43,946 nt of DNA, from contig VGRX01000006.1 of the NCBI GenBank assembly GCA_016875215.1, positions 1 through 43,946 of the forward strand, given 5' to 3'. Position numbers and translations under genes: made by a program. Shown here piece by piece: positions 1 through 40,924 of the stretch (positions within the stretch are counted from its first letter, which is position 1; the number at the start of each line of letters is the position of its first letter). This DNA is from Deltaproteobacteria bacterium (GTDB lineage: Bacteria; Myxococcota_A; UBA9042; CAIXZC01). The notes beneath the pieces are model-generated. The model saw nothing but the letters and a program-made list of their open reading frames with translations, was not told the origin of the DNA and made no database searches.

Positions 1-166
1 GGGGGGCCCCCGTACCTGAGAACAGGTCGAGAACGAGCGCATCCGGGATATGGTCGGAGATTATCGAGAAGAGCGATTCCCGCACGCGGTCCATGGTGGG
101 CCGCACCTCCATTCCGGAAACCGTTGAAAGTTGAACGCTCCTGAACTCACCGGCGATGATCCGCAC
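1..166 (-). CDS. rsmD: 16S rRNA m2G966 methyltransferase RsmD, N-terminal fragment cut by the window edge
   Basis: Reading leftward from a GTG at 166, an uninterrupted 55-codon frame runs to base 1. It begins MRIIAGEFRS and carries RPTMDRVRESLFSI followed by VLDLFSGTGA. These match the N-terminal RNA-binding/substrate segment (RPTxDRVRE) and the SAM-binding motif I (DLFxGxGA) of RsmD, which methylates G966 of 16S rRNA in the 30S subunit. A GGAGGT sequence lies about nine bases upstream of the GTG. The last codons (Pro-Pro after GTGA) depart from the usual GALG, possibly a poor-quality contig end. The catalytic NPPY motif lies outside the window. Divergent from the gene starting at 341. Confidence 0.8.
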   Translation of the reverse strand, partial: MRIIAGEFRSVQLSTVSGMEVRPTMDRVRESLFSIISDHIPDALVLDLFSGTGAP

Positions 167-272
167 GCCAGGCCCACCTCCTTGCAAGGTCCGTCCCTTC
201 TACCATCGAATCTCCCGGTTTGCAAGGTGGCCCTCCGGGCCTGCGCCTTTGGTGTTTCGTTGTAGCGCATCC

Positions 273-301
273 TTGACAGGGCTTGGACGCGGCGGTTATC
301 A
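273..301 (+). promoter_or_regulatory. sigma70-type promoter for the DUF4388-like/TPR gene
   Basis: A perfect -35 TTGACA (273-278) is followed after 17 bp by TTATCA (296-301). Transcription would begin near 308, about 33 bases before the ATG at 341. Confidence 0.6.
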
Positions 302-340
302 TCGCCGCGGCAGCTCAATCTGTCAGTCGCAGGGTTTCCA

Positions 341-2752
341 ATGGCGGCGCCGTTGCCCACTCTTCGCAAGTACCAGTTCTTTCAGGAGGGGTATTGCCTG
401 CGATCTCAGGGGTTCACCGGTACGCTGGAGCTCCAGGATGCCGGCGGTAGTCTCTCCGTGGTGTTCACCGGGGGCAGTCCGGTCCGGGCCTCCAGCACCG
501 AGGTCGCCCTCTCCTTCCCCGCCTTCCTGATCATGAAGCGCCGGGTCAAGAGGCCGGAGATGCGGGAACACCTCGAGGAGGCAGCCCGGCGGGGGATGAA
601 GATCGACGATCTCCTCCTGGCCATCGGCACCCTCTCCCCCAAGGACCTGCTCCGCCTCAAGCGGGAGCTGAGCCTGCACGTGTTCGCCATGGCCTTCCAC
701 AAGGATCGGGTGGGATTCCGAACCCTCCCCGGCGAGACCGGCACCGAGGATCTGCTCCACGGCCGGGAGGTGCTCGAGCTCCATGAGGGGCTGTTCCGGG
801 CCGTGGCGTTCGATCGCGACACCGACTTCCTCTCCCGGATGTTCCACGGCCATTGGGAGACCTCGCTGGTCAAGACGGCCGACTTCTACCGGTATCTCAT
901 CCAGTTCCGGTCGGTCTTCTATGGCGAGGACATCTCGGACCTCCTGCTCGAGCCGGGGGCATCGGCCCAGAAGGTCATCGATACCGCCGAGGACCGTGAA
1001 TCCGCCATCCGCCAGCTCTTTGCCCTCACCTACTCGGGGATGCTCATCTTCGAGGCCGGGGAGGACGCTGCGGCCCACACGGACACGGGCGAGGTGCTGT
1101 TCGCAGGGGAGAACGCTGCGGCAACGGAAGCCAAGACCGTGGTGATCCTCCCTCAGGAGGCGCAGCAGGCGCAGGTGACGTCGTTCCTCGGGGTGGGGGA
1201 GATCCCCTTTGCCGAGGAGGCTGTGCCGGAACCTCCGGCATCGCCGCCCAAGCCCAAATCGGACGTGGAGGCCTTCCTCGAGACGGGGTTTGCTGCCCGA
1301 TTGCCGGACGAGAAGCCCGACTTCGAGCTCGATGCTTCTCCGCCATCCCGCACCGGCGCGGGCAGCACCCGACATCGGGCCTCCGACTCTGCTCCTGCCG
1401 AAGAAGGGCCGCAGGCCGCACAGCCCGCACCGCAGACCTCCGGGCCGGTCCCGGAACGTGAGCCCGAGGCCGCCGGACCGGCCCGCACCGATGTCCCTCA
1501 GGACCAGGTTGCCGCACCGGCTCGGGGCGCAATCCCCTCCGACCCCCAGGTGACGGCGCCGGCCGGGCCGGCAGTCGCCCCGGCGCCGCCGCCCGAGAAA
1601 GCGGAGTCGACTGCGGAACAGGTCGTCGTGCCCGATCGGGACGAGGCCGCCGCCCTGGAATCCCCCCCGGCTGAAACGGATTCGGAGGATTCCACCCCCA
1701 GGGCGGGACCGGGCGGGATGCAGAGCCTTGCGGCCCTGGTGCCCGAGGCCGCGGCATCGAAGACGATGCGCATGTCCGCTGGCGACGACGACGGTGTCGA
1801 GGACCTCCTGGAAAAGGCGGTTGCTGAGGCCGAGAAGTTCACGGAGGCCGCACGGGGCACCCCCCGCGGGCCGCTGGCCGAACCCATTCCGCCCCAGGCC
1901 AGGCCGCAGGCCTCCACGTCCCGCCTGGCCCTGTCCGACCCGCCTCCGCTGCCGGACCGGGCTCCCATGCCCGAGCCCGGCACGGACGAAAGCATCGAGC
2001 GCATCCTGGAAGAGGTCTACCGCGGCATGCTCTCCCGCAACCTGTACCAGGTGCTCAACGTCACTCCGTTCACCCCCCTGTCCAGCGTCCGCGAGTCGAC
2101 ATCCCGCCTGCGGACGAAGTACTCGATCGGCCAGTTCTCACGCTACATTCTCTCGGCGCGCGCCAAGCTGCTCCTCGAGTACATCGGCCGGGAGGTCGAG
2201 AGGGCCGAGAACGTGCTGACCGAGCTGGCAGAGCGCACCGTCTACGACAACCGGGTCGGAACCGACTACGGCCAGGACCGCCGGGTTGCCCTCGCGTTCC
2301 TTTTCGATGCCGAAGAGGCCTTCCTGGCCGGCGTGGTGCTCGCGGAGCGGGGCGAGTGGGCCGAGGCCTTGCAGCGCTTCACCCGGGCAGCGGAGCTGAA
2401 CCCCCGCGACCCGGAGTACCTTGCCCGCCGAGGATGGGCAGCCTATCAGGCGCTCCGCACCGGCCAGAGCACCGACAGCTTCGCCCCCAACAAGGCCCGT
2501 AACATCCTGGAGAGGGCCCTGGCCGTCGACCCACGCCACGCACACGCCATGCTCTATCTCGCCCGTATCGAGAAGGAGATGGACAACCTGGATGTTGCCC
2601 GCACCTGGTACGAGCGTCTTCAGAAGGTCGACCCCGGCAACGAAGAGGCTGCCATCGCGCTCGAGAAGCTCCGGAGCATCACTCGGGATGGCCGCAAGCC
2701 GGAATCGATCAGCATGTGGGAGAGGTTCAAGGGGATCTTCCGCAGGAAGTAG
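341..2752 (+). CDS. DUF4388/PATAN-like, J-domain-like and TPR multidomain protein
   Basis: An 803-residue cytoplasmic protein with no signal peptide or membrane segment. Residues about 10-240 resemble the DUF4388 (PATAN) type module found in deltaproteobacterial regulators. Residues about 245-550 are a Pro/Ala/Glu-rich disordered linker. Residues about 565-640 (LYQVLNVTPFTPLSSVR onward) look like a J-domain that has lost the HPD motif needed to stimulate Hsp70. Residues about 655-795 hold TPR repeats (AEALQRFTRAAELNPRDPEY, then ERALAVDPRHAHAMLYLARI). The protein ends in the basic tail FKGIFRRK. A role as a scaffold or regulator is inferred; no catalytic motif is seen. Its last 133 bases are overlapped tail-to-tail by the gene on the other strand. 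The ribosome-binding site is weak. The domain calls are from memory of the families, so moderately sure. Confidence 0.85.
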   Translation: MAAPLPTLRKYQFFQEGYCLRSQGFTGTLELQDAGGSLSVVFTGGSPVRASSTEVALSFPAFLIMKRRVKRPEMREHLEEAARRGMKIDDLLLAIGTLSPKDLLRLKRELSLHVFAMAFHKDRVGFRTLPGETGTEDLLHGREVLELHEGLFRAVAFDRDTDFLSRMFHGHWETSLVKTADFYRYLIQFRSVFYGEDISDLLLEPGASAQKVIDTAEDRESAIRQLFALTYSGMLIFEAGEDAAAHTDTGEVLFAGENAAATEAKTVVILPQEAQQAQVTSFLGVGEIPFAEEAVPEPPASPPKPKSDVEAFLETGFAARLPDEKPDFELDASPPSRTGAGSTRHRASDSAPAEEGPQAAQPAPQTSGPVPEREPEAAGPARTDVPQDQVAAPARGAIPSDPQVTAPAGPAVAPAPPPEKAESTAEQVVVPDRDEAAALESPPAETDSEDSTPRAGPGGMQSLAALVPEAAASKTMRMSAGDDDGVEDLLEKAVAEAEKFTEAARGTPRGPLAEPIPPQARPQASTSRLALSDPPPLPDRAPMPEPGTDESIERILEEVYRGMLSRNLYQVLNVTPFTPLSSVRESTSRLRTKYSIGQFSRYILSARAKLLLEYIGREVERAENVLTELAERTVYDNRVGTDYGQDRRVALAFLFDAEEAFLAGVVLAERGEWAEALQRFTRAAELNPRDPEYLARRGWAAYQALRTGQSTDSFAPNKARNILERALAVDPRHAHAMLYLARIEKEMDNLDVARTWYERLQKVDPGNEEAAIALEKLRSITRDGRKPESISMWERFKGIFRRK

Positions 2753-7608: not shown

Positions 7609-7630
7609 AGCCCCGACCACGCGGGAGGGG
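7609..7630. repeat. Single copy of the CCCCGACCACGCGGGAGGGG hairpin repeat
   Basis: The 20-base core is at 7611-7630, 27 bases after the stop of the LolA-like gene. It can fold as GCCCC/GGGGC with a tandem G-A internal mismatch, then CC/GG closing an ACGC loop. Identical cores occur at 10241-10362 and, inverted, at 14066-14268. Confidence 0.85.
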
Positions 7631-7646
7631 CCCCATGGATATGCCG

Positions 7647-7760
7647 TGGGCAGCCTGCCACGCCGTAGCCTTGGCGGAGGCGGGTGGGCAGCCTGCCACG
7701 CCGTAGCCTTGGCGGAGGCGGGTGGGCAGCCTGCCACGCCGTAGCCTTGGCGGAGGCGGG
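7647..7760. repeat. Three exact tandem copies of a 38-bp repeat
   Basis: Copies occupy 7647-7684, 7685-7722 and 7723-7760. Each starts TGGGCAGCCTGCCACGCCGT and contains AGCCTTGGCGGAGGCGGG. They fill the gap between the LolA-like and barrel genes, immediately right of a hairpin core copy. The GTAGCCTTGGCGGAGGCGGG part resembles the GAAGCCTTGGCGAAGCAGGG sequence at 3430-3450 on the other strand. Confidence 0.95.
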
Positions 7761-7787
7761 TAGGTGCAACGGGCACGGAGAAACGGA

Positions 7788-10237: not shown

Positions 10238-10376
10238 CACAGCCCCGACCACGCGGGAGGGGCCTTGTGGATGTGCCCCCCACAGCCCCGACCACGCGGG
10301 AGGGGCCTTGTGGATGTGCCGTGGGAATGGGCAGTTCACAGCCCCGACCACGCGGGAGGGGCCTTGTGGATGTGCC
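10238..10376. repeat. Three 40-bp direct repeats carrying the hairpin core
   Basis: Exact copies at 10238-10277, 10281-10320 and 10337-10376 begin CACAGCCCCGACCACGCGGG and end AGGGGCCTTGTGGATGTGCC. They are separated by 3 and 16 bases, so they are interspersed, not strictly tandem. CACA at the left and TGTG at the right can extend the hairpin. They fill the space between the lipoprotein and RND genes inside one operon. Confidence 0.95.
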
Positions 10377-13371: not shown

Positions 13372-14625
13372 TCATCTCCTTCCTGCCGCTGCCACGGCTC
13401 CCTTCACGACGAGAAAGATCAACAGCGATGCTGCCGCCATGCTCGCCCCGGTCGGAAGGGAAAGCACGAACGAGGCCCAGTAGCCGAGGAACGCAGCAAG
13501 GGCCCCGCACGCAGCCGATACCGCCACGAGCAGTCTGGGCCTGCGAACAACGGACAGCGCCGTCATCGCAGGAAAAACGGCAAACGCAAACTCGGGCAAT
13601 GCCCCCACGACCCGGGTTCCGGTGGCAATCGCGACTCCCATGGAAAGAAAGAGCAACCCGTCCAGGATTCGGATCGGCACCCCGTGTGCACGGGCCGTCA
13701 GGGGGTCGAAGGCGTGTATCAGGAACGCGGGGGCCAGGGCCAGGTGCAGCGCGACGATCACTACCGATACAATCACGGCCTCCAGCATCTGCCCGGATGC
13801 AATGACGATGGCATTCCCGAACAGCACGTCGTTGACATCGTGAAGCTCCTGCTGGATGAAGCCCCCGACAAGGAGCACGGTGGCCGAGGCACCGATGAAG
13901 ACGGTTCCGAGCAGCCATTCGCGTGTCACGCGCCGCCCCTCCCGTACGAACCCAAGCAGCAAGGCCCCCAGGCATGCGAAAACCATGGCGAGCGCTCTCG
14001 GGAGCATGGGAGGGCAGTGGCCGTGCTCGTCGTCGGAACGCGTTGATCGGTGGTCACCTGTGGCGGCCCCTCCCGCGTGGTCGGGGCTGGGTTCGGAACG
14101 CGTTGATCGGTGGTCACCTGTGGCGGCCCCTCCCGCGTGGTCGGGGCTGGGTTCGGAACGCGTTGATCGGTGGTCACCTGTGGCGGCCCCTCCCGCGTGG
14201 TCGGGGCTGGGTTCGGAACGCGTTGATCGGTGGTCACCTGTGGCGGCCCCTCCCGCGTGGTCGGGGCTGGGTTCGGCAAAGACGTTGGGATCATCCGCCA
14301 TGGGGATCGGAAGGGGCTCGGTTTCGGGCACGTTGCCGGATTGGGTCTCCAGGCCGTGAGAGTGAAGGGAATCGAGGCCGGGCTCTCCCGACGTCCCCGC
14401 GTCGACCGGTGCCGCGGGAGTCACAGCAACCGGTTCCTGGGCCAGGGTATGGACCAGGAGGAACGCCACGACCACGCCGGCCCCGGCAAGCTGCGACAGG
14501 GCAGCGGGCATGAAGACGACCCGGCGCAGAGTCGTGTGCACCCCGATGGCCCCTGCGGCCGCAGCAATGGCGGCTGCCGCGATGACGATGTCGAGCCAGA
14601 GGAAATGGGCATCGAGGAAACTCAT
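13372..14625 (-). CDS. znuB: ZnuB-like metal ABC transporter permease with an in-frame repeat insertion
   Basis: 417 residues against about 260-290 for typical family members. Two helices at residues 10-60 and about six after residue 205 give the ABC-3 permease fold (GADSA-like coupling loop region and FxxFPAMTALSVVR near residue 350). Between them, about residues 65-205 form an extra hydrophilic loop. At about residues 116-197 this loop consists of four copies of EPSPDHAGGAATGDHRSTR (preceded by A or S), encoded by the 60-bp DNA repeat, then DDEHGHCPP. The His/Asp/Glu content could bind metal, but this may be a neutral by-product of repeat insertion. Start ATG overlaps the ATPase stop (ATGA) with GGGAGGG upstream. 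Last gene of the zinc operon. Confidence 0.85.
   Translation of the reverse strand: MSFLDAHFLWLDIVIAAAAIAAAAGAIGVHTTLRRVVFMPAALSQLAGAGVVVAFLLVHTLAQEPVAVTPAAPVDAGTSGEPGLDSLHSHGLETQSGNVPETEPLPIPMADDPNVFAEPSPDHAGGAATGDHRSTRSEPSPDHAGGAATGDHRSTRSEPSPDHAGGAATGDHRSTRSEPSPDHAGGAATGDHRSTRSDDEHGHCPPMLPRALAMVFACLGALLLGFVREGRRVTREWLLGTVFIGASATVLLVGGFIQQELHDVNDVLFGNAIVIASGQMLEAVIVSVVIVALHLALAPAFLIHAFDPLTARAHGVPIRILDGLLFLSMGVAIATGTRVVGALPEFAFAVFPAMTALSVVRRPRLLVAVSAACGALAAFLGYWASFVLSLPTGASMAAASLLIFLVVKGAVAAAGRR
14041..14276. repeat. Four tandem 60-bp repeats within the permease gene
   Basis: Units at 14041-14100, 14101-14160, 14161-14220 and 14221-14276 are identical; the last is 56 bases long. Each starts CGTTGATCGGTGGTCACCTG and contains the inverted hairpin core CCCCTCCCGCGTGGTCGGGG. 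As 60 is a multiple of three, the repeats keep the reading frame. There are no unique spacers, so this is not a CRISPR array. Confidence 0.97.
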
Positions 14626-15416
14626 GGCCGTCCCTCCCGGGCCGGGCCCGCCAGGACAACGCGGGGGCCCTCCGCCTCCACCACGATCGAGATTGCCCGG
14701 CCGAAGAGGGCGGAGAGCCGCTCCGGGGACATCAGCACCGACACGTCGTCGATGGTGATGGACCCCTGGTCCTTGTTCAGCAGCGCAATGCGATGGGCAT
14801 GTCGGGCCGCCAGCCAGAGTTGGTGGGTGACCAGGAGCACGGCCATTCCCCGCCCTTCGGCGAGCCGCTTGACCAGATCCATGAGGTCACGCTCGGCAGG
14901 CAGGTCCATGCCCGCGGTGGGCTCGTCCAGGGCCAGGATGTCCGGTTCCCGTACCAGCGCCCGGGCCATGAACACCCTCTGCTGCTGGCCTCCCGAGATC
15001 TCCCGGAACGGGACTTCCGCCAGGTTCGCCAGTCCCACCAGGTCGAGCGCTGCCAGAGCTTTGTCGGGGCGGGACAGCAGGGAGCGGGACACGATGCCCT
15101 CTGGCCGACCGCCCCGTCCCCCACCCCGCACCACGTCCAGGGTCGACAGGGGGAAGATGGGATCCCGCTGGCCTCGCTGGGGGACATAGCCGACCCGGAC
15201 TCCGGCCGCGCTCCAGGCCTTTCCAGCCAGAGGCGCAGTCAGTCCCAGCATCGTGTGCAGCAGGGTCGTCTTTCCCGCTCCGTTGGGCCCCACCAACGCC
15301 AGGAAGTCCCCCTTTCGGACCTCCATGTCGATGCCCTCCAGGAAGGGATGCCTGCCGTATCCGATAGCGACTCTCGAGAGCCTCACGAGCACTTCTGATC
15401 CTGGGTCACCCCTCAT
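14622..15416 (-). CDS. znuC: ZnuC-like metal ABC transporter ATP-binding protein
   Basis: 264 residues with Walker A GPNGAGKTT (about residues 44-52), signature ISGGQQQRV, Walker B ILALDEPTAGMD and the switch His in LLVTHQ. This is the cytoplasmic ATPase energising metal import through the permease encoded next. The ATG at 15416 has GGAG five bases upstream and is preferred; a GTG at 15443 overlapping the lipoprotein stop (GTGA) is an alternative and would add nine residues. Order with the neighbours (binding protein, lipoprotein, ATPase, permease) shows one operon. Zinc rather than manganese is inferred from the operon. Confidence 0.9.
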   Translation of the reverse strand: MRGDPGSEVLVRLSRVAIGYGRHPFLEGIDMEVRKGDFLALVGPNGAGKTTLLHTMLGLTAPLAGKAWSAAGVRVGYVPQRGQRDPIFPLSTLDVVRGGGRGGRPEGIVSRSLLSRPDKALAALDLVGLANLAEVPFREISGGQQQRVFMARALVREPDILALDEPTAGMDLPAERDLMDLVKRLAEGRGMAVLLVTHQLWLAARHAHRIALLNKDQGSITIDDVSVLMSPERLSALFGRAISIVVEAEGPRVVLAGPAREGRP

Positions 15417-15439
15417 GGGATCTCCTCGCATGCCGATCC

Positions 15440-15847
15440 TCACTCCTCATGCATCTCGGGCACGCAGTACTCCTTCGCCCCGAATGACTTCACGGTCCCG
15501 TGATCGCACGGGCAGTCTCCGTCGGCCGGGCAGAGGCATGCCGCATGAGAAAGCTCGTGCTCCTCGTGACCTGCAGCATGGTCCTCTTCCACGGCGTCCC
15601 CCTCCACGGCCCCGCTCTCCGCCGGTTCCTCCTCACAGACAGCGGCGATCTTGTCGGGTGTGACGCAGGTCGCTCCGTCGACGAGGTAGCCGTCGTCGCA
15701 GTGGCAGTGCCCGTCGTGCTCGGTGCCGTGTGCTCCGCAATCCAGCGCCTCGACCCCAGCCTTCCCTTCCTCCGCACACCCTGCCGGAAGGAACGACATG
15801 CAGAATACGACAAGAAGAACAGATACTACTTGATCAAAGCTCTTCAT
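15440..15847 (-). CDS. Cys/His/acidic-rich lipoprotein, probable metal-binding partner of the zinc operon
   Basis: 135 residues, starting one base after the binding-protein stop with GGAG upstream. A lipoprotein signal ends at LPAGC (about residue 24). Next comes an EGF-like stretch (HGTEHDGHCHCDDGYLVDG, about residues 38-56), then an acidic/His run (EEDHAAGHEEHELSHAACLC) and a Cys cluster (CPADGDCPCDHG). The density of His, Cys, Asp and Glu is what one expects of a surface or periplasmic metal trap. I do not recognise a named family. The first 20 codons are much more AT-rich than the neighbourhood. Confidence 0.75.
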   Translation of the reverse strand: MKSFDQVVSVLLVVFCMSFLPAGCAEEGKAGVEALDCGAHGTEHDGHCHCDDGYLVDGATCVTPDKIAAVCEEEPAESGAVEGDAVEEDHAAGHEEHELSHAACLCPADGDCPCDHGTVKSFGAKEYCVPEMHEE

Positions 15848-15848
15848 T

Positions 15849-16751
15849 TTAGTTCTCCGAATCCGTTGCGATGTGGTTGACAATAAAATCAACCATATCG
15901 ATATAGCTATTCATTCCCGATGCTCCGACCATGGTGGGCAGCACGAGCAGCCTGGCTCCGCTCTTGTCTGCGAACTGCCTGGACAGCTCGGTGGGATAGA
16001 ACGACTCCTGCAATACGAACTTCACTCCCGAATCCTGGACCACCTTGAGCAGTCCCGCCACGTGGGAGGGGCTGGGGGGGATGCCCGGCTTGGGCTCCAG
16101 CGCTCCCGCTTCCACGAGGCCGGCGAAGTCCAGGAAGTAGATCCAGCTCTTGTGATACACGACGACTCGGGTTCCCTTCACGGGCTCGAGCCGTTTCGTC
16201 CAGTCCACGATACGGGCCTGGAGCCGTTCGACAAAGGCATCGCAGCCCCTCTGGTAGTCTTCCGCATGATCCGGGTCGATCGCAGCGAGCCGTTTGGCGA
16301 TCCCCCGAGCGATGCGGATCCCGTTGCGGGGGTCGGTCCAGTAGTGGGGGTTGCCTCCGGGGTGGATGTCCCCCTTCGACCTGTCCGGCGACTGGATTCC
16401 CATCGGGGGAATCAGGGTGGAGCAATCCAGGTACCCGTCCTCCCCCTTCTGGATGTCTGCGTTCCGCGCCCCGACCAGGAGCGGCGGCAGCCAGCCCCCT
16501 TCCAGCTCCATCCCGACCAGGAGCAGCAGGTCGGCCCGGTTGAGTGCTACTACGAAGGCTGGCTTGGCGTCGAGGAAATGCGGATCCTGGGTGGGACGCA
16601 CCATGGCGACCACGTCCACCCGGTCTCCACCGATCTCCCGGGCGATGGCCGCGAAATCCGGGATGGTCGAGACGATCTTCACCTTAGCCGCCAGGTCTGC
16701 GGGGAACAGGAAGAGCCCGGACAGGGACAGCAACATGGCGAGCATCTTCAT
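15849..16751 (-). CDS. znuA: ZnuA-like periplasmic metal-binding protein
   Basis: 300 residues of the cluster A-I (SBP_bac_9) family that delivers Zn or Mn to an ABC permease. Start ATG 16751 has GGAGG eight bases upstream and precedes a Sec signal (MKMLAMLLSLSGLFLFPADLAA). Candidate ligands sit in the usual order: His in RPTQDPHFLDAKP (about residue 58), His in GNPHYWTDPRN (about 135), His in VVVYHKSWIYF (about 200) and Glu/Asp in LQESFYPTELS (about 265). The His-rich loop of many ZnuA proteins is missing; the lipoprotein next door may replace it. The final 20 codons are AT-rich and hold a dyad at 15874-15895. Confidence 0.88.
   Translation of the reverse strand: MKMLAMLLSLSGLFLFPADLAAKVKIVSTIPDFAAIAREIGGDRVDVVAMVRPTQDPHFLDAKPAFVVALNRADLLLLVGMELEGGWLPPLLVGARNADIQKGEDGYLDCSTLIPPMGIQSPDRSKGDIHPGGNPHYWTDPRNGIRIARGIAKRLAAIDPDHAEDYQRGCDAFVERLQARIVDWTKRLEPVKGTRVVVYHKSWIYFLDFAGLVEAGALEPKPGIPPSPSHVAGLLKVVQDSGVKFVLQESFYPTELSRQFADKSGARLLVLPTMVGASGMNSYIDMVDFIVNHIATDSEN
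15874..15895. promoter_or_regulatory. AT-rich dyad, candidate internal operator in the zinc operon
   Basis: TGGTTGA, eight bases, then TCAACCA form a perfect 7-8-7 inverted repeat in an AT-rich island (about 15838-15915). It ends about 27 bases upstream of the lipoprotein ATG. Zur-type sites are AT-rich dyads, so a metal regulator could act here; that is inference. It lies inside the znuA-like coding region. Confidence 0.35.
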
Positions 16752-16767
16752 GACTTGACCTCCATCA

Positions 16768-17931
16768 TCAATAAGCATGGGCGCCATGGGCGCCTGCGGA
16801 AACCTCGACCTGGACGAGGCCGATGTGGTTGAGCTCGAATCCCTCCACCCGTTCCAGGGTGTACTGCAGCCTCAGCCTTGAGAAGTGGCTCGGCAGGAAG
16901 GACAACGCGATGCTGCCCCGTTCCGTGTCCAGGCCGAACTTGTCCCGCCCGTTCTCCTCGTCGGGGTCGGCACCGTCGATCCGTCGCCACAGCTCGCCTC
17001 GCAAGGCGGTCTCCCAGCGTTTTGCGAGCCCGACGACCAGGTCGCAGTAACCCCCGGCGTCGGTCCAGACGTCTGCGGGGACCTCCATCTGCCGTAGCCA
17101 TCCCTCGACGAGAAGCGACACGAAGGTATAACCGGTTTCCCCCCATCCGATCGGCCGCCACTTGAGGAAGAAGTCCCCTCCGTAGGCATAGGAACGGTTC
17201 CCGACGTCCGGCCCGATGGCAGACGGCCCGAGAAGCGCATTTCCGGCCACCTGCAGGGCCCAATCATCGGAAAGATCGAAGAAGCTGGTCAACCGGAGCG
17301 GATAGAGCATGTCCTGAAGCGAAGGATCCCCCGAGCTCAAGGGCAGCGTTCGGAACGCCCCCCCCTCTCCATGCTGCACGGCAGCGGTGAGCTCGGCATA
17401 CCAGGGCAGCGGGGCGAGCCAGGAGACTTCCACGCCGGGGGCCCCGAGCCCCTCCGCACCGAAGAGGTACTGGTTGGGCAACGGGTGGAGCACGAAATGC
17501 CAGGAGTGGGGATGGGTTGCGTTGTTGCGCCCCAGTCGTGAAAGAAACTGCCCCGCCCGCACCTGGAAGTTCCACGGAAGTGAGAGGGTCGTCAGGACCA
17601 TCTCCTCCAGGTGCATGTGAGCGAAGCACAGTGCCATGTCGAACCGGAAATAGGGATCCACGTTGGCCGATGCGGCAAGCTCCCCGCCGGTCAATGCCAG
17701 ACCGGTCGAAGTCGGCGCGTGCCCGCCCATGTGGACGCGGTCCGCTTCGGAGAAATAGGTCCCGACAAAATCCAGGATCAGCGAAATTGAAGGATTCGTC
17801 TCGTTTCCGAAGACCTCCTTGCCCAACAGGCTGCCGAGGTCCCCCTCCTGGGCATGAAGGCCCTGGGGAACGGCAGTCAACGGCACGGCCGACAATGCCA
17901 TGGCCGACAGCGTCAGGATGACACTCCGCAT
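16768..17931 (-). CDS. Outer-membrane beta-barrel protein of the zinc operon
   Basis: 387 residues with a signal peptide (MRSVILTLSAMALSAVPLTA to LHAQ). ATG 17931 is chosen because GGAGG lies four bases upstream. The mature part has amphipathic strands and the segment FQVRAGQFLSRLGRNNATHP (about residues 130-149), with several His (CFAHMHLEEM, HPHSWHFVLHPLP). Proteins like this beside metal ABC genes are often labelled zinc-regulated outer-membrane receptor, but I see no TonB box or plug domain. It may be a porin-like channel or receptor for zinc. Sixteen bases separate its stop from the ZnuA-like start. Confidence 0.72.
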   Translation of the reverse strand: MRSVILTLSAMALSAVPLTAVPQGLHAQEGDLGSLLGKEVFGNETNPSISLILDFVGTYFSEADRVHMGGHAPTSTGLALTGGELAASANVDPYFRFDMALCFAHMHLEEMVLTTLSLPWNFQVRAGQFLSRLGRNNATHPHSWHFVLHPLPNQYLFGAEGLGAPGVEVSWLAPLPWYAELTAAVQHGEGGAFRTLPLSSGDPSLQDMLYPLRLTSFFDLSDDWALQVAGNALLGPSAIGPDVGNRSYAYGGDFFLKWRPIGWGETGYTFVSLLVEGWLRQMEVPADVWTDAGGYCDLVVGLAKRWETALRGELWRRIDGADPDEENGRDKFGLDTERGSIALSFLPSHFSRLRLQYTLERVEGFELNHIGLVQVEVSAGAHGAHAY

Positions 17932-32035: not shown

Positions 32036-32408
32036 TAGGTACCAGCAGCTTCCCCAGATTCGCAGGCTCGGCCCGCTGCCGGCGATTCTGGCGAAACGAG
32101 TAGCCCCCCCCCGCAAGCACGGCAGTGGGAATCCCCGTGACCTGTCAGGCGCACAGTGCAGCCGATGCGTCCTCCAGGTACGGTCTGACGGGCCGGAACG
32201 GGGCGCAACGGGACGCAACGGGATGCAACGGTCCAATGATTTCAACGGGTTCGGCCTGGGGGCTCGGGTGACGGGCACTTTCCCAAGCTGAATGTCGCGG
32301 GTTCAAGATGCAGATGTGCCTTGGGCGCGGGCAACCCGGCGGCCCAGGCGACGAGACAGACCGTTGGTGCGGGCAGTCCCCGCCCCCACTGTGTCCCGGA
32401 AACACCTG
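32036..32408. other. Intergenic region with four decamer repeats
   Basis: No convincing gene in 373 bases. At 32191-32230 four 10-base units (GGCCGGAACG, GGGCGCAACG, GGACGCAACG, GGATGCAACG) stand in tandem. The rest shows short C/G runs and no RNA I recognise. Confidence 0.7.
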
Positions 32409-40573: not shown

Positions 40574-40924
40574 TCAGGCGGTACCGGTGGTTCCTGCCGC
40601 CCTGGCAGGTTCCTTCGCGACGCCGTCGCTCTTGTCCGCTCTCTTGTCCGCTCTCTTGTCCGTGCTCTTGTCCGTGCTCTTGTCAGTTGCGGAGGGGGCG
40701 GTTTCGGTCTTTTCTTCCTTGTGCGAGGTGGAGTTGGTCTTCTTGCCTGCGTAGTCGGTCACATACCAGCCGCTCCCCTTGAGCTGGAACGAGCTCATCG
40801 AGACCTGGCGATGCACATCCAAGGAGCCGCACGCGGAGCACGCAGGCCGGGAGTCGTCGGTGATGCGGCGCCACTGCTCGAAGTCGCGTCCGCAGGCGTT
40901 GCAGCGGTACTCGTAGATGGGCAT
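40574..40924 (-). CDS. FmdB-type zinc-ribbon protein with repetitive charged tail
   Basis: 116 residues. The zinc ribbon is [19 protein letters not shown] followed by CSACGS, i.e. two CxxC pairs typical of FmdB regulators. Residues 50-60 ([14 protein letters not shown]) are also conserved in the family. The tail (about residues 65-116) is charged and contains [20 protein letters not shown], encoded by a 12-base DNA repeat at 40631-40684. Function of the family is poorly known. First gene of its run with a strong promoter. Confidence 0.85.
40631..40684. repeat. 12-base tandem repeat inside the FmdB-type gene
   Basis: Five units of CTTGTCCGCTCT or CTTGTCCGTGCT, the last partial. Being a multiple of three it preserves frame, and copy-number change would lengthen or shorten the charged tail. 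Confidence 0.9.

Follow-up and report, generated by a model that had tools for sequence, protein, structure and literature searches.

A REP-like tandem DNA repeat in frame within an extra loop of a ZnuB-like metal permease

The ZnuB-like permease gene of a deltaproteobacterium (assembly GCA_016875215.1) contains, in frame, a tandem array of a short DNA repeat that is dispersed in the same genome, flanks a gene of the RAYT type and is absent from related permeases. We consider it likely that this array arose when a REP-like repeat was inserted in frame by a RAYT-type transposase and then locally duplicated, and that its product is a tolerated linker. The array lies in the window, by which we mean the whole analysed stretch of 43,946 nucleotides (contig VGRX01000006.1); its features are listed in Table 1.

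Table 1 Features of the window, with position, strand and basis of assignment
Feature	Position	Strand	Basis
ZnuB-like ABC-3 metal permease, 417 aa	13372..14625	-	PF00950, E 1.1e-32
ZnuC-like ABC ATPase, same operon as the ZnuB-like gene	14622..15443	-	PF00005, E 1.2e-25
ZnuA-like binding protein, same operon as the ZnuB-like gene	15849..16787	-	PF01297, E 1.9e-49
Extra hydrophilic loop, residues 62-203, 142 aa, between predicted helices 2 and 3	14017..14442	-	Helix prediction and relatives
Tandem array, 4.1 x 60 bp, identical units	14033..14276	-	TRF and repeat search
Core copy 1 (CCCCGACCACGCGGGAGGGGC)	14246..14266	-	Core search
Core copy 2	14186..14206	-	Core search
Core copy 3	14126..14146	-	Core search
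Core copy 4	14066..14086	-	Core search
Single core copy, intergenic	7611..7631	+	Core search
Three core copies, spacings 43 and 56 bp, between two genes	10243..10362	+	Core search

The four 60-bp copies of the original prediction were recovered by TRF with 100% identity, and a separate repeat search gave the same register; the copy number was read from one contig of a fragmented 857-contig assembly and is uncertain in its exact value. The array is in frame within the permease ORF. Each unit (20 codons) encodes EPSPDHAGGAATGDHRSTRS, and residues 118-197 (80 aa) consist of four such units. The protein was assigned to the ABC-3 (ZnuB/MntB) permeases by its ABC-3 domain and by its operon with ZnuA and ZnuC genes, and its structure matches are 7KYO and 9OKO. 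Between the ZnuC and ZnuA genes lies a small gene for a His/Cys/Asp-rich lipoprotein-like product (15440-15892, minus strand) with no Pfam match, which is a more promising candidate for metal binding within the operon than the loop with the repeat.

The array is part of an extra loop that, as predicted, follows the second helix. The 29 aligned ZnuB relatives have roughly 5 to 17 residues between helices 2 and 3 and none has the 142-residue loop. At this position G003, the nearest member of the family (42% identity across the domain), has about 15 residues, and PsaC in the solved permease 7KYO has about 7 between the aligned parts. Since the loop is missing in these relatives and in PsaC, the extra sequence is special to this genome or genus. 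The predicted excess of about 130 residues agrees with the observed one of about 125-137 over relatives, of which the repeat copies account for only 80. The other 62 loop residues need an origin other than the repeat. A search of the genome found no second copy of them, and a further mobile element as their source was rejected because of this single occurrence.

With 12 His and 14 Asp residues, and with the non-repeat His/acidic stretches SLHSH and DDEHGHC, the loop could be read as a functional periplasmic arm that collects metal: a chance insert would have been kept and amplified, and its DH pairs would bind Zn or Mn together with SLHSH and DDEHGHC near the permease mouth. The basic residues after helix 1 (HTTLRRV) and helix 3 (REGRRVTRE) place the loop, by the positive-inside rule, probably on the periplasmic and not on the cytoplasmic side. 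The neighbouring genes for ZnuA and for the His/Cys-rich lipoprotein, and loop ends that are acidic or His-rich and do not stem from the repeat, also speak for a metal arm. Nevertheless, we regard it as improbable. The His and Asp residues of the repeat are dictated by the DNA core, and the peptide SPDHAGGA is also found where nothing points to a role in metal handling, namely in a kinase linker, a DUF1385 protein and a lipoprotein. As a by-product of the core that recurs in unrelated proteins, the DH motif is not evidence for a metal site. In addition, the four identical copies offer no test of selection, and relatives manage without the loop. Metal binding by the loop, as put forward in the original prediction, is thus possible but weakened. 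Titles and abstracts from a literature search gave no indication of a His-rich ZnuB loop.

The 21-bp core was found at 166 places in the 5.9 Mb genome (≤2 mismatches), while the reversed pattern, used as control, gave 0 forward and 1 reverse match. The predicted intergenic occurrence of the same core was confirmed in the window and genome-wide. None of 52 related genomes, including three of the same family, contains it (≤1 mismatch); among the matches listed in other phyla there are four single exact ones, in actinobacteria, which look like chance. When up to three mismatches were allowed, 163 copies fell into 71 clusters, 32 of them singletons and 39 arrays, with exact copy numbers uncertain because several arrays touch contig ends of the 857-contig assembly. 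All 39 arrays are head-to-tail, and no alternating-orientation pairs or BIMEs were present among them. Their spacings range from 30 to 178 bp, near-constant inside one array and different from array to array. Most core copies are non-coding. About five of the 71 clusters lie inside genes, which is a minimum, as 210-bp flanks gave a codon-usage test too little power and a second one missed ZnuB and the kinase due to their low-complexity loop flanks.

The element is larger than its core. It has CACACAG on the 5' side and a right arm of ~24 bp on the other, of which there are at least three types, that of the ZnuB array being ...cacaggtgaNcNccgatcaac. Closest to the ZnuB array is an array with a 66-bp period on contig C79, which has the core and flanks in common with it (86% over 117 bases). 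This likeness bears on the view that a 60-bp segment of znuB was duplicated by slippage as an ordinary coding tandem repeat, with no mobile element involved. The copies are indeed identical and in tandem, and slippage is required anyway to reach four of them. However, a core at 166 mostly non-genic places already contradicts such an origin, the C79 array shares core and flanks, and znuB of relatives has no loop, so that we hold this view to be hardly tenable.

The core is an imperfect palindrome (GCCCC/GGGGC), the arms of which pair in four of five predicted folds. The folding energy of the unit was not better than that of shuffled sequences (z between -1.1 and +1.1), which lends no support to a strong hairpin. 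No GTAG/GTGG or CGTC tag was present in the element consensus, the conserved 5' flank being CACACAG. A CRISPR array was dismissed, since the spacers are near-identical within arrays and the periods vary between arrays, and so was a known RNA family, as the Rfam search was without match. In its high copy number and its location mostly outside genes the repeat conforms to REPs, and it is a REP-like mobile family.

The genome holds two Y1_Tnp (IS200-like) genes, on contigs C250 and C192. The C250 protein reaches 24.6 bits (genome) and 23.8 bits (protein) with PF01797 at a cut-off of 23, and it has an HUH motif (HVH) and a C-terminal tyrosine region (CYVTGQ), the combination of Y1_Tnp domain, HUH motif and Tyr by which a RAYT was recognised. 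This RAYT-type gene sits at the contig edge, with its CDS (72-563, minus strand) between a core at 47-67 (plus strand) and cores at 632-652 and 810-830 (minus strand), that is, between inverted flanks. By a rough estimate from ~71 clusters and 5.9 Mb, the chance of such two-sided flanks within ~100 bp is of the order of 1e-5 to 1e-6. A pair of inverted REPs around the gene is a constant feature of RAYTs (PMC2817692). C250 homologues in G047 and G247 (36-41% identity) also have inverted flanking repeats, of other sequence; those of G247 have at least 40 further matches in that genome, and those of G047 comprise the two flanking copies only. At the homologue in G001 flanking repeats were sought and none seen. 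The inverted flanks at the C250 gene and at the homologues in G047 and G247 place the family in the REP/RAYT world, and its position makes the C250 enzyme the likely mover of the repeats. With the REP/RAYT (TnpA-REP) system the family shares a short imperfect palindrome of high copy number, mostly intergenic and private to one lineage, and a Y1/HUH transposase gene between two inverted copies (PMC2817692). It is unlike classical REPs in tag and array orientation: a GTAG/GTGG head is lacking, the 5-bp stem is weak, and head-to-tail arrays take the place of alternating BIMEs.

Some further observations were made around these genes. The C250 ORF (L134 3-563, minus strand) runs on without a stop into the downstream core (EGPSRVVGAV), where the contig ends; the C-terminus of the transposase thus seems to be formed by the repeat. 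A neighbouring lipoprotein-like ORF (L134 about 1000-1300, plus strand) has repeated LLPDANVPDSLLPDAHVPDS units. In G247, which belongs to the same phylum, a 28-bp head-to-tail array of GAGCCGCGCGCGTCAGCGAGCGGGT adjoins the RAYT homologue (L205, G247:C15:18173-18283), and this transposase subfamily may therefore commonly be accompanied by tandem arrays. The second Y1 gene, on C192 (L133, gene 1462-2376), lies amid eight copies of AAGTGTCAAGTGTTAAGTCCTGA, those upstream being inverted relative to those downstream; gene and repeat are a second REP/RAYT-like set in the same genome.

Besides ZnuB, at least four proteins carry the element in frame. A Ser/Thr kinase (PF00069; L125 687-3248, plus strand) has eight copies in 42-bp steps, encoding SPDHAGGA, between the kinase domain and a putative membrane helix; a separate GEKKP/GGKKP repeat was noted near its C-terminus. 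An M2 peptidase (PF01401) lipoprotein has two copies near the N-terminus in a different frame (APTTREGP), in a variable region for which its relatives have no alignable counterpart of the insert. One copy each was found in a DUF1385 protein (PF07136), where the same-family relative G001 aligns straight across the 38-residue insert, and in a lipoprotein of no known family, where 21 residues are missing in G001 and G002. The 3' end of a glycosyl hydrolase 88 gene appears to be formed by the element (PPDHAGGA).

These cases also help to judge whether repeat reads were collapsed or misjoined into znuB during assembly. An assembly of 857 contigs with several arrays at contig ends, and four copies that are all identical, would fit such an artefact, yet the reading frame is uninterrupted for 244 bp and joins the conserved ABC-3 sequence on either side, and the units carry flank sequence private to the znuB locus. 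The same in-frame pattern is seen in four other genes, two of them with clean relatives. An artefact is therefore very improbable; the copy number of the array may change, but its outright absence is unlikely.

Counting ZnuB, there are six gene captures. The core lies in the sense direction in every one of them, and five use one frame (SPDHAGGA or PPDHAGGA). If six frames were used equally, the probability of at least five of six in one frame would be ~0.004 (a hand calculation on a pattern noticed post hoc, with detection that was not exhaustive). The spacings of arrays inside genes are all divisible by three, which also applies to about half of the other arrays. The bare core has no stop codon in any frame. 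On a reading that we doubt without dismissing it, the family would supply one standard disordered linker peptide throughout the genome: a core open in every frame, together with the common frame and orientation of five of six captures (four internal and one C-terminal), would suggest selection for insertion products with this hydrophilic peptide and later tandem tuning of linker length.

For the ZnuB array we propose that the transposase copied one element of about 60-85 bp into a part of the znuB-like gene where a flexible periplasmic loop would be encoded. Translation would run on through the insert, because the core is stop-free in all frames and a unit of 60 bp makes up 20 whole codons, and the insertion would be tolerated because the core is open and the loop presumably unstructured. 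Local head-to-tail duplication, by slippage or unequal recombination as in the 38 other arrays, would then have led to four identical copies, if insertion preceded expansion. The repeat peptide would most likely be a disordered linker that the protein tolerates, and not a metal site under selection, tolerance being more plausible than benefit. The same process may have put the element into the Ser/Thr kinase linker, the M2 peptidase lipoprotein, the DUF1385 protein and the other lipoprotein. Capture of a DNA repeat as protein, the central claim of the original prediction, is in this way supported by a family that is dispersed, mostly non-coding, private, RAYT-linked, absent in ZnuB relatives and in frame in at least four unrelated genes.

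The principle is already known. Intragenic GTAG/CGTC REPs occur in Opitutus terrae, Thauera, Thioalkalivibrio and others, and some of their clusters encode 43-82 aa (PMC3733652). These REPs, too, lie inside ORFs and in part as clusters, but they are another repeat family and many of their hosts are DNA synthesis and repair genes, whereas the hosts here are a metal permease, a kinase, a peptidase, a DUF1385 protein and a lipoprotein. The classic case, as cited in PMC10969869, are the Rickettsia palindromic elements (RPE; Ogata et al. 2000), mobile palindromes that are read in frame as part of unrelated proteins. According to that source they measure ~150 bp, in contrast to a 21-bp core in elements of ~60-85 bp that are amplified in tandem in a 5.9-Mb genome. 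PARCEL, the palindromic amphipathic repeat coding sequence, likewise is a palindromic DNA repeat encoding tandem protein repeats, but PMC2996958 presents it as a coding repeat, while the family described here is mainly non-coding. Distinct here are the repeat family itself, its strict head-to-tail arrays, the recurrent single reading frame and the set of host genes.

The genome offers a clear case of transposase-associated non-coding repeats turned into protein sequence in a bacterium with a large genome, with insert-free relatives for several of the proteins and the likely transposase in hand. It makes it possible to test how frequently protein linkers derive from mobile palindromes and whether selection chooses the frame. 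It is also a warning that His/Asp-rich loops in such proteins should not be taken for designed metal sites.

The window contains other tandem repeats. Directly after the core copy at 7611 follows a perfect 38-bp repeat of 3.1 copies, GTGGGCAGCCTGCCACGCCGTAGCCTTGGCGGAGGCGG (7646-7761). A part of it, CGCCGTAGCCTTGGC, also stands before the core in L093, and the 38-bp repeat may thus be dispersed as a second family. A 10-bp repeat (ACGGGACGCA) lies at 32188-32231 and a 12-bp repeat (CGCTCTTGTCCG) at 40627-40684.
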